Assembly (NCBI GenBank): GCA_902608415.1
Contig: CACLNZ010000011.1
Location: forward strand, 1 to 34,897
DNA: 34,897 nucleotides
Source: an uncultured PS1 clade bacterium
GTDB taxonomy: Bacteria; Pseudomonadota; Alphaproteobacteria; MED-G09
Direction: 5' to 3'
Shown: positions 4,870 through 34,842 of the stretch, one piece after another
How positions within the stretch are numbered: position 1 is the first letter of the stretch
Layout of the letters: each line of letters opens with the position of its first letter
Notes under the pieces: generated by a model
Databases searched by the model: none
Told to the model about the DNA's origin: nothing
What the model saw: the letters and a program-made list of their open reading frames with translations, nothing else
Program-made: the position numbers and the translations under genes

Positions 4870-5211
4870 GTCAGATGGCTGGATGATCGCACTTTAATGT
4901 GAGGAAAGTCCGGGCTCCAAGAGACACAGTGCCGGATAATGCCCGGCGAGGGCGACCTCAGGGAAAGTGCCACAGAAAATATACCGCCATTTTGGTAAGG
5001 GTGAAAAGGTGCGGTAAGAGCGCACCGCAAATATGGTAACATATTTGGCAAGGCAAACCCCACTGGGAGCAAAACCAAATAGGAATAGTGATGTAAACGT
5101 CTCTTTTTATACTATTCGGGTAGGTTGCTAGAGATTTATGGTGACATAAATCCAAGATGAATGATCATCACCACTTTGTGGATACAGAACCCGGCTTATA
5201 AGCCATCTGAC
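4870..5211 (+). ncRNA. rnpB: RNase P RNA, class A
   Basis: This is the catalytic RNA that removes 5' leaders from pre-tRNA, about 342 nt long. The ends pair to form helix P1: GTCAGATGGCT at 4870-4880 and AGCCATCTGAC at 5201-5211. The conserved core is present: GAGGAAAGTCCGGGCT at 4901-4916 and ACAGAACCCGGCTTA at 5184-5198, which build helix P4. Between them are the typical A-type blocks GGTAAGGGTGAAAAGGTGCG near 4995 and AACCAAATAGGAATAG near 5073. Open reading frames on the opposite strand here are artefacts of the RNA's structure. It lies directly ahead of the mraZ control region. Confidence 0.97.
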
Positions 5212-5246
5212 AAAAAAATACACTATTTTAATGAATTCTAAAAAAA

Positions 5247-31708: not shown

Positions 31709-33100
31709 TTAAGATGGCTTAATCATTTTTTCAGGACGAACTATCTTGTCGTATTCCTTTTCAGAGATATATTTTAATTTTATTGCCTCTTCCTTGAGGG
31801 TTGTGCCATTTTTATGTGCTTTTTTTGCTATTTCAGCAGCTTTATCATAACCAATTACTGGCGCTAATGCAGTAACTAGCATCAAAGAATTATTAAGGTG
31901 TTGATTAATCATTTTCTTATTTAACTTAATTCCTGAAACACAATTTTTAACGAAACTATTGCAGCCATCCGATAATAATTCGATCGATTGTAAAATATTA
32001 TAGGCAATCATAGGCTTATAAACATTTAATTCAAAATGACCCTGACTTCCACCTATTGTTATTGCTGAATGGTTTCCCATCACTTGGATGCATAACATAG
32101 TCATTGCCTCACATTGAGTAGGATTTACTTTACCAGGCATTATTGAAGAGCCGGGTTCATTTTCAGGTAATTGTATTTCGCCAAGACCAGCTCTAGGACC
32201 AGAACCCAAAAGACGAATATCGTTAGCAATTTTAAATAATGATGATGATAATGTATTTAAAGATCCAGAAAATTCAACTATTGCATCATGAGTTGCTAAA
32301 GCTTCAAACTTATTATCAGCAGTTTCAAATTTCATTTTTAGAAATACACTGCATTCTCTTGCAAATTTTTTATCAAACCCTTTTTTTGAATTTATACCAG
32401 TTCCTACAGCTGTTCCACCTTGTGCGAGATACATTAAATCTTTTAAAGATTTATTAACACGCTCGATCCCTTTTTCCACTTGAGTATAATAACCAGAGAA
32501 CTCTTGTCCGAGAGTAACAGGCGTAGCATCTTGTAAATGAGTTCTTCCTATTTTTACTGTATCCTTAAATTCTTCTGATTTATTTTTTAGGATATCGGCA
32601 AGTTTTTTAAGAGACGGAAGTAATTTTTCTTTAGTATCTAATGTACATGCAATATGCATTGCTGTTGGGAAAGTATCATTTGATGATTGAGACATATTAC
32701 AGTGATCATTCGGATGAACTGGTGTTTTTGAACCTTTTTTTCCACCAAGTAATTCAATCGCACGATTTGAAATAACTTCATTAGCATTCATATTTGATTG
32801 AGTACCTGATCCAGTTTGCCATACAGATAAAGGGAAATGATCATTTAATTTTCCAGAGATAACTTCTTTTGAGGCTTTTACAATTGCATTGCTAATTTTT
32901 TTATCAAGTTTACCTTGTGAGTAATTAACTTTTGCAGCCGCAAGTTTGATAACACCTAAACTCTTTATGATTGAAGTTGGTATAACTTCATTACCTATAT
33001 CAAAGTTTTTTAATGATCTCTGGGTTTGAGCTCCCCAATATGCATTGGCTGGAACATTTATATAACCAAAAGAGTCAGATTCTTTTCTGTTTTTTACCAA
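31709..33100 (-). CDS. fumC: class II fumarate hydratase
   Basis: FumC hydrates fumarate to malate in the citric acid cycle and needs no iron-sulfur cluster. Family signatures are [10 protein letters not shown] at 97-106, the [11 protein letters not shown] segment at 139-149, [10 protein letters not shown] at 185-194 with His188 and the flexible loop [11 protein letters not shown] at 317-327 with Ser318/Ser319. Length is 463 residues, as usual. The start codon is TTG at 33100-33098. AGGAG lies five bases before it (33110-33106 on this strand), and no in-frame ATG precedes the conserved YWGAQTQRS. It is the first protein gene after the tmRNA on this strand. Confidence 0.96.
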
Positions 33101-33171
33101 AATAACTCCTGAAAAAAATTCATTATAGCTGACTCTTTTTTAGAGGAAAATTTAATTTTTATAAAATTAGC

Positions 33172-33458
33172 GAGAAGCTTCTGTTGCCAGGCGCCTCTCA
33201 AGCCCCGCCTAATTATGCAACTAATTAGGAGTTAATTTGAGCGCTCGCGCTTAAGCAGCGAGAGGTAACTCAGCATAGTCGTTATTTGCAACTATAAAAT
33301 AGCCCGATAACGGCGGTACAATGCCGAGCAAAAAGAGAATCTTTACACTTTCGTCGATCCTATTTCACCCCCATATTTATGGTGGAGGTGCCGGGTACCG
33401 CCCCCGGGTCCGATAAGTTTATTACATAATCCGTTTATTGCCATAGCTGTAAACAGCA
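33172..33458 (-). ncRNA. ssrA: two-piece, circularly permuted tmRNA (alphaproteobacterial type)
   Basis: tmRNA rescues stalled ribosomes and tags the unfinished protein. Reading the minus strand, the acceptor piece comes first (about 33458-33380). It has a T-arm with stem CCGGG/CCCGG and loop GGCGGTA, and ends CACCTCC-A-CCA. A seven-base spacer (33379-33373) follows, then the coding piece starting GGGGGTG at 33372. GGGGGTG pairs with CACCTCC to make a seven-pair acceptor stem, with the G3-U70 wobble that marks alanine. GGATCGACG follows, like the usual GGATTCGACG. The tag frame is at 33289-33251. The 3' region GGCGCCTGGCAACAGAAGC is also typical. Exact ends are estimated. The gene is read toward fumC. 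Confidence 0.93.
33251..33289 (-). other. tmRNA tag reading frame (ANNDYAELPLAA)
   Basis: After ATAGTT the resume codon GCA opens a frame of twelve codons and a TAA stop, encoding ANNDYAELPLAA. The start (AxxxYA) and end (LAA) fit known proteolysis tags, and the final LAA should be seen by ClpXP. Known alphaproteobacterial tags commonly begin ANDN, so the NND order and the short ELP core are unusual. Confidence 0.9.
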
Positions 33459-33463
33459 AATTA

Positions 33464-33492
33464 ATTATATACCGGATCAATTAAAATTTGAA
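33464..33492 (-). promoter_or_regulatory. probable tmRNA promoter
   Basis: On the minus strand TTCAAA (33492-33487) and a perfect TATAAT (33469-33464) are 17 bases apart. The predicted transcription start near 33457 coincides with the estimated 5' end of the acceptor piece. A TTGACA further upstream (33499-33494) has a spacer of 24 bases to the same -10 and is less likely to be the -35. Confidence 0.65.
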
Positions 33493-33539
33493 GTGTCAAA
33501 TAACTTGTTTAAAATAGAATGTGAGTCGTGGAGTAATTT

Positions 33540-34334
33540 ATGCAACAGTACTTAAATCTTCTTCGTCATGTTATGGATAATGGTGAAGAAAAATCTGATA
33601 GAACTGGAACAGGAACAAGATCAGTGTTTGGTCATCAAATGAGATTTGATCTAGCTGATAATTTTCCATTATTAACAACAAAAAAAGTACATTTGAAATC
33701 AATAATATATGAGCTTTTGTGGTTCTTGAAAGGTGAAACAAATATAAAATATCTAAAAGAAAACGGTGTAAGAATATGGGATGAATGGGCTGATAGTAAC
33801 GGAGAATTGGGCCCTGTTTATGGTCATCAATGGAGATCTTGGCCTTCAGATGATGGAGGAAAAATCGATCAAATTACTCAACTTATAGAGCAAATAAAGA
33901 ATAACCCTGACTCCAGAAGATTAATTGTCTCAGCTTGGAATCCAACGGATGTTGAGAAAATGGCTTTACCACCATGCCATTGTCTTTTTCAATTCTATGT
34001 CAGCAATGAAAAATTATCTTGTCAACTTTATCAAAGATCTGCTGATATTTTTCTAGGCGTACCATTTAATATCGCTTCTTATGCGCTTTTAACTATGATG
34101 ATAGCAAAAGTTACAAAATTAAATCTTGGTGAATTTGTTCATACTTTTGGTGATGCACATTTATATTCAAATCACTTTTCTCAAGCTGAAGAGCAGTTAG
34201 TAAGGTCCCCTAAATCATTACCAAAAATGATAATAGCCTCTAATCCAAAAACAATTTTTGATTTCGAGTATGAGGATTTTATTCTTGAGGATTATGATCC
34301 GCATCCTCATATTTCTGCTCCAATAGCAGTTTAG
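33540..34334 (+). CDS. thyA: thymidylate synthase
   Basis: ThyA methylates dUMP to dTMP using methylenetetrahydrofolate and releases dihydrofolate. The protein has 264 residues, exactly the length of the Escherichia coli enzyme. Arg21 lies in DRTGTGT and the catalytic Cys146 in [11 protein letters not shown]. The dUMP-binding segment [20 protein letters not shown] is near 157-176, and [12 protein letters not shown] near 201 is intact. GGAG at 33530-33533 is six bases before the ATG. It diverges from the tmRNA gene and overlaps folA in function: the dihydrofolate it makes is recycled by the reductase four bases downstream. Confidence 0.97.
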
Positions 34335-34338
34335 TAAG

Positions 34339-34842
34339 ATGATCATTAGTTTAATTGCAGCAATTGATAAGAATGGCGTTATTGGAGTTGATGGTGATCT
34401 TCCATGGAATATACCCTCCGATTTAAAAAAATTTAGAGAAATTACATCCTACAAACCTATAATAATGGGAAGAAAAACATGGGAGTCAATTGGAAGACCT
34501 CTTCCTAACAGAGACAATATTATAATCTCTAGAAATAAAAACTTTAATTTGGAGGGCGCAATACTGGCTTCATCACCCGAGGAAGCTATTACGATTGCGA
34601 AACAAAAAGCTAAAGAAAATGGTGCAGATGAAATAATGATTATAGGTGGCGGTTATATTTATAATGAATTCATAGCTACATCAGACCGATTATATATAAC
34701 TGAAGTCGATATAGAAGTTGAAGGTGATGCTTTTTTTCCTAAAATAGATAGCTCAAAATTTAAAGAAGTAAAACGCGAAGAAAAATCAAAAGAACCAGAT
34801 GACGATGCTTATCATTCAATGGTAATTTACGAAAAAATTTAA
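34339..34842 (+). CDS. folA: dihydrofolate reductase
   Basis: This NADPH-dependent enzyme reduces dihydrofolate to tetrahydrofolate, restoring the cofactor spent by ThyA. The 167 residues show ISLIAAIDKNGVIGVDGDLP at 2-21 with PWNIPSDLKKFRE following, where Asp27 is the expected acidic catalytic residue. GRKTWESIGRPLPNR near 44 and the NADPH loop IIGGGYIYNEFI near 99 are also clear. It begins four bases after the thyA stop, so the two form an operon. Confidence 0.95.
   Translation: MIISLIAAIDKNGVIGVDGDLPWNIPSDLKKFREITSYKPIIMGRKTWESIGRPLPNRDNIIISRNKNFNLEGAILASSPEEAITIAKQKAKENGADEIMIIGGGYIYNEFIATSDRLYITEVDIEVEGDAFFPKIDSSKFKEVKREEKSKEPDDDAYHSMVIYEKI

Follow-up and report, generated by a model that had tools for sequence, protein, structure and literature searches.

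The tmRNA encoded in the window (the whole stretch of DNA analysed, 34,897 nucleotides from an uncultured PS1 clade bacterium) adds a peptide tag that begins ANND, and the question raised by this locus is whether its departure from the usual ANDN has to do with the ClpX adaptor SspB. In this class, the Alphaproteobacteria, SspB is thought to bind the N-terminal part of the ssrA tag; the primary studies of alphaproteobacterial SspB are reportedly those of Lessner (2007) and Chien (2007). The genome that holds the window, 1.1 Mb in size and 83% complete, falls in an order represented here by 18 genomes, all of one family (f1) and three genera.

By its predicted architecture the tmRNA is an ordinary two-piece gene (Table 1). 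The one gene that ARAGORN calls in the window is a permuted tmRNA with the tag ANNDYAELPLAA (33160-33475, minus strand), and the Rfam model RF01849 (alpha_tmRNA) matches 33496-33169 of that strand over its whole length (model positions 1-355), with 268.8 bits against a gathering score of 50; RF04321 (tmRNA_permuted) also matches ssrA, with 147.3 bits. The acceptor piece comes first in the gene and the coding piece second, their predicted ends lying about 7 bases apart, and a G3-U70 acceptor pair is legible as 33370 with 33386. The codons over 33289-33251 read GCA AAT AAC GAC TAT GCT GAG TTA CCT CTC GCT GCT TAA. ARAGORN, RF01849 and the sequence agree exactly with the preliminary description on frame, tag, resume codon and stop, and the covariance alignment, run on the minus strand, kept that frame. 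Elsewhere in the window there is a complete class A RNase P RNA gene (4871-5214, plus strand; RF00010, 332 bits), just upstream of a mraZ-like gene.

Table 1. Features of the ssrA neighbourhood in the window
Feature	Position	Strand	Basis or remark
fumC, fumarase class II	31709..33100	-	Pfam Lyase_1, FumaraseC_C; downstream of ssrA, same strand
ssrA-fumC junction, 68 bases; place of sspB in three f19 genomes	33101..33168	-	
ssrA, permuted two-piece tmRNA gene	33169..33496	-	RF01849 full model; ARAGORN
Coding piece, 5' GGGGGUG (acceptor stem)	33169..33372	-	Covariance alignment and sequence; ends predicted
Tag frame ANNDYAELPLAA with TAA stop; GCA resume codon at 33289-33287	33251..33289	-	ARAGORN, sequence, homologous frame in 13 relatives
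Codons 10-12, LAA, presumed ClpX signal	33254..33262	-	LAA in 14/14 tags of the order; ClpX role from E. coli (PMC8512704, available extract)
Codons 2-4, AAT AAC GAC = N-N-D; N-D-N where SspB is present	33278..33286	-	190 tags compared
Acceptor piece, encoded CCA at 33382-33380	33380..33496	-	Covariance alignment and sequence; ends predicted
thyA, thymidylate synthase	33540..34334	+	Pfam PF00303; upstream, divergent from ssrA
folA, dihydrofolate reductase	34339..34842	+	Pfam PF00186

A tmRNA above cut-off was found in 14 of the 18 genomes of the order. Three genomes of the window's genus carry ANDDYAELPLAA, which a single base change at codon 3 (GAC to AAC), altering one residue, separates from the window tag; one further genome of the genus shares ANDDYAELALAA with the single g3 genome, and the eight g2 genomes have AKSDYAEYALAA, AKSDYAEYSLAA or AKRDYAEYALAA. 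None of the 14 tags starts with ANDN, four kinds of first four residues being present, while all end in LAA; a proline stands at -4 in four of them. The tag does mark lineages, as had been proposed, with ANDD or ANND in genera g1 and g3 and AKSD or AKRD in g2. By parsimony, N4 would have changed to D order-wide, after which a one-base change in a subclade would have turned D3 into N; the NND first taken for a reordering of NDN is thus better described as two steps. Two other supposed peculiarities dissolve on comparison: 12 residues is the commonest length rather than a short one (69 of 156 tags from SspB-positive genomes), and the ELP core is common to three sister genomes.

The same tag recurs in a second genome of the genus, in records PBRS01000061.1 (L165) and G002:C58 (L052), which are probably one contig seen twice (each 94.41% to the window over about 1.79 kb). 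Because it stands in PBRS01000061.1 and in the second ssrA copy of G002, the tag is genuine and not confined to a single assembly, and an assembly error at codon 3 is ruled out. The G002 bin (PBRS01) holds two ssrA genes, one with ANNDYAELPLAA (L052/L165) and one with ANDDYAELALAA (L005/L168), and is either a mixed bin (4% contamination) or a genome with two true copies. A phage-borne copy was considered and rejected: the tag-region pattern of the order turns up 14 times in genome_contigs, in 13 genomes, and not at all in viral_contigs, collections that may omit the window's own record.

A search with PF04386 found no SspB in the order (18 genomes, six with a completeness of at least 93%) and found it in 21 of 23 other genomes of the class. 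Over a larger sample of the class the domain is present in 337 of 385 genomes, and in 288 of the 314 with completeness of 90% or more and contamination of 5% or less. Our own profile, built from 20 SspB proteins of the class, also gave 0/18 for the order, in a search that carried no control genome; run on 38 further genomes, it recovered all eight SspB-positive ones outside its training set and matched a single one of the 30 PF04386-negative genomes, G167, weakly (E 0.07) and with internal stops. The preliminary description had looked to an sspB gene elsewhere in the genome for a comparison of its tag-binding groove; these searches turned up no such gene in the order. Solved relatives are 2nys, 2qas and 2qaz.

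Other SspB-negative genomes are of several sorts. (i) The absences in G167 and G217 look like gaps; their families have SspB. (ii) Family f98 includes four single-contig genomes, 99-100% complete, without SspB and with the tags ANESYAIAA or ANESYALAA. (iii) Three genomes of families f83 and f58 (L070-L072), with no SspB found, have tmRNA matches below the cut-off of the alpha model; ARAGORN calls a one-piece tmRNA in L070 and L071 (tags ADDNFEYAMAA and AEDNFEYALAA), and the tag of L072, read by eye, is AEDNFEYKLAA. A review, in the text available of it, describes SspB as confined to certain proteobacteria and not indispensable (PMC8138137).

The gene neighbourhood suggests where sspB once lay. 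Three f19 genomes (L011, L142 and L147) have the order thyA (divergent)-ssrA-sspB-fumC, against thyA-ssrA-fumC in the window. The distance from ssrA to fumC is 612-646 bases in those three and 33-75 in 13 measured loci of the order, which therefore have no room for sspB. In 14 of the 21 SspB-positive genomes of the PF04386 search, sspB starts no more than 250 bases 3' of ssrA and on its strand. Since sspB is so common in the class, we infer loss in the order rather than gain elsewhere. In L061, of the SspB-negative family f24, fumC also lies 3' of ssrA, 297 bases off, and the tag is ANDKLAIAA. A thyX-type gene stands beside ssrA in one f98 locus and one f31 locus; such a neighbour is recorded for Pelagibacter in the available part of PMC2704228.

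Tags were read in 190 genomes, 156 SspB-positive and 34 SspB-negative, which are not a random draw. They include 52 SspB-positive genomes chosen for small size (55 sought, 52 with a tmRNA) and 60 taken at about one per family from the better-scoring part of a longer list; 43 SspB-negative genomes of the class outside the order yielded a tmRNA match in 20 (three below cut-off) and none in 23. Where ARAGORN gave no call, the tag was picked out by eye among the frames that end in AA. The departure from ANDN remarked on at the outset is real, an ANDN start being the rule in the class: it occurs in 124 of 156 SspB-positive genomes versus 4 of 34 SspB-negative ones, in 123/131 versus 4/32 when tags of at most 16 residues are taken, and in all short tags of 78/85 SspB-positive versus 1/9 SspB-negative families; Fisher tests on these counts, and on those for small genomes given below, take genomes or families as independent.

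Exceptions exist on both sides. Eight of the 131 short SspB-positive tags lack the ANDN start (among them that of G170, ANNNSAPVAMAA, whose third residue is N), and ANDN occurs in four SspB-negative genomes, three of them less than 90% complete or with SspB-positive relatives in the family. Tags of more than 16 residues (25 of 156 SspB-positive) are mostly not ANDN; many of these long tags are basic-rich with repeated N-x-N elements, and they come mostly from small genomes (loci L081, L086, L088, L100, L115, L117, L118, L120, L121 and L123). The first four residues differ within 1 of the 29 SspB-positive families that have two or more short tags, as against 2 of 5 SspB-negative families, namely this order and f31. 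In f31, three genomes of one genus without SspB (L064, L065, L066) have ANDNELALAA, ANNNELALAA and AKNNQLALAA, as if changing stepwise.

Where SspB is present, it is the peptide that is kept. The entropy of short SspB-positive tags is 0.22-0.36 bits at positions 2-4 and about 3 bits at positions 5-7, with none at the last two alanines, and the synonymous forms of codons 2-4 in the SspB-positive ANDN tags are used nearly equally (65:59, 68:56 and 72:52), which places the constraint on the residues; an RNA-level cause of N-D-N conservation in these tags is ruled out by the same codon choice.

Taken together, the comparisons suggest to us, with a probability of about 0.65, that the tag works through its LAA end on ClpXP alone and that its former SspB-binding part has drifted since an ancestral loss of sspB; drift of that part would be explained by the apparent loss of SspB from the lineage. 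The preliminary suggestion that the NND part bears on SspB was sound. The remaining machinery is at hand: SmpB is found in 12 of the order's 18 genomes, among them the window's (PF01668, E 1.8e-56), and ClpX carrying the zinc domain in 14, again with the window's included; the window's genome also has tig-clpP-clpX-lon, with clpP and clpX adjacent in L235. The parts for direct recognition (ClpX, ClpP and the LAA end) are thus all present, degradation itself being predicted, and the features of SspB-assisted degradation are not seen, with no sspB in the 18 genomes and N-D-N in 0/14 tags. By analogy with E. coli and Caulobacter, an alanine-charged, SmpB-bound tmRNA would enter the stalled ribosome, translation would resume at GCA and append A-ANNDYAELPLAA, and ClpX would engage the C-terminal LAA directly, for ClpP and without SspB. 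Across most of the class, SspB seems to be what maintains N-D-N in the tag; an ancestor of the order would have lost sspB from the thyA-ssrA-sspB-fumC neighbourhood, and positions 2-4 would then have been free to drift to ANDD, ANND (the window) and AKSD/AKRD. The E. coli tag, AANDENYALAA, has its SspB binding in AANDENY and its ClpX binding in ALAA, and E. coli ClpXP degrades a protein with the wild-type tag without SspB, at a higher KM, 3.38 versus 0.47 uM (both from the available extract of PMC8512704).

How often SspB was lost independently bears on causation. A tmRNA tree (tag excluded; about 300 bases, weak, and joining f1 with f98) needs five changes of SspB status when rows with insecure SspB absence (L026, L054, L062, L067 and L069) are dropped and AANDN is counted as ANDN. 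That version holds 2 supported independent pairs, usually concordant and never opposed on average; with nothing dropped there are 5 independent pairs, mostly without a tag difference. Both trees omit the three one-piece tmRNAs (L070-L072), and the phylogenetic contrasts fall short of significance in both versions, being underpowered at 2 or 5 pairs. The association of SspB with the tag is therefore strong in counts, while the contrasts rest on those few pairs and a weak tree; SspB loss as the cause of the tag change is not proven, because the independent losses are few (at most five).

Genome streamlining with A+T bias might instead drive drift at the N-terminus of the tag, SspB loss being a parallel effect and not a cause. 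The genomes of the order are indeed small (about 0.9-1.4 Mb), several other SspB-negative families have small genomes too, and 7 of 30 short tags from small SspB-positive genomes lack an exact ANDN start. Small genomes nonetheless keep ANDN when they have SspB (23/30, versus 1/25 without; by family, 13/19 versus 0/6), the SspB-negative side of this comparison being seven families in which no sampled genome has SspB, among which f118, f24 and f154 are represented by genomes less than 90% complete. The step from GAC to AAC does add one A+T base, whereas the g2 tags with AKSD and AKRD introduce G and C as well. We consider this account unlikely, and keep to drift after adaptor loss.

One observation goes against simple drift. 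D4-Y5-A6-E7 is present in 14/14 tags of the order, across three genera, and its codons (33269-33280 in the window) read GAC TAT GCW GAG with near-invariance that extends to third positions, even though fumC in g2 and g3 departs from that of the window at 26-28% of residues; an invariant peptide with near-fixed DNA is not predicted by relaxation. Perhaps, after SspB was lost, ClpX itself or a new adaptor began to recognise D-Y-A-E, so that the tag was re-specified and not relaxed. This seems to us quite improbable, since conservation at synonymous sites points at least equally to a constraint on the RNA, possibly its structure. When the 14 loci are folded as a consensus, the DYAE codons are predicted to pair with bases upstream of them, and a single-sequence fold has a z of -1.85. 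A hairpin of the bases before the resume codon with codons 4-5 (mean longest stem 5.5, versus 4.9 with partners swapped) is not claimed, because those bases change in g2 and break the pairing. That sspB is present and was missed, through assembly gaps or divergence beyond the profiles, is very improbable: most of the 18 genomes, like the window's, are incomplete, gap-like absences are known elsewhere (G167, G217) and our profile ran on the order without a control, but two profiles agree, one of them validated separately, six genomes are nearly complete, and the ssrA-fumC junction is closed in 13/13 measured loci.

By itself the window tag, one step from its sisters, is minor; the combination of adaptor loss with change in the adaptor element seems to be the point of interest. 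Among the literature matches listed, titles and abstract openings do not describe SspB loss linked to tag change. The order and its relatives offer a natural experiment on what holds the ssrA tag fixed: with SspB, N-D-N is near-frozen as peptide with its codons free; without it, N-D-N varies and the final AA is constant. Should the correlation survive a full species tree, adaptor status could be told by the tag, from the genome alone, and these lineages would be a source of natural SspB-free tags with which ClpXP must cope unaided. If the tag was re-specified instead, tag and reader would have changed together in a marine order after SspB loss.

One of the closest known systems is the alphaproteobacterial arrangement with sspB 3' of ssrA on the same strand: the thyA and fumC neighbours are those of L011, L142 and L147, and the window differs in having no sspB between ssrA and fumC. 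The two-piece tmRNA of the RF01849 type is matched at full length, with the same piece order, encoded CCA, GCA resume codon and LAA end; the window tag differs in starting ANND, not ANDN, and SspB was not found in the order. E. coli has SspB and a one-piece tmRNA, in contrast to the two-piece tmRNA of the window. What the window has in common with the E. coli ssrA/SspB/ClpXP system, as far as the available extract of PMC8512704 describes it, is a modular tag with a C-terminal LAA.
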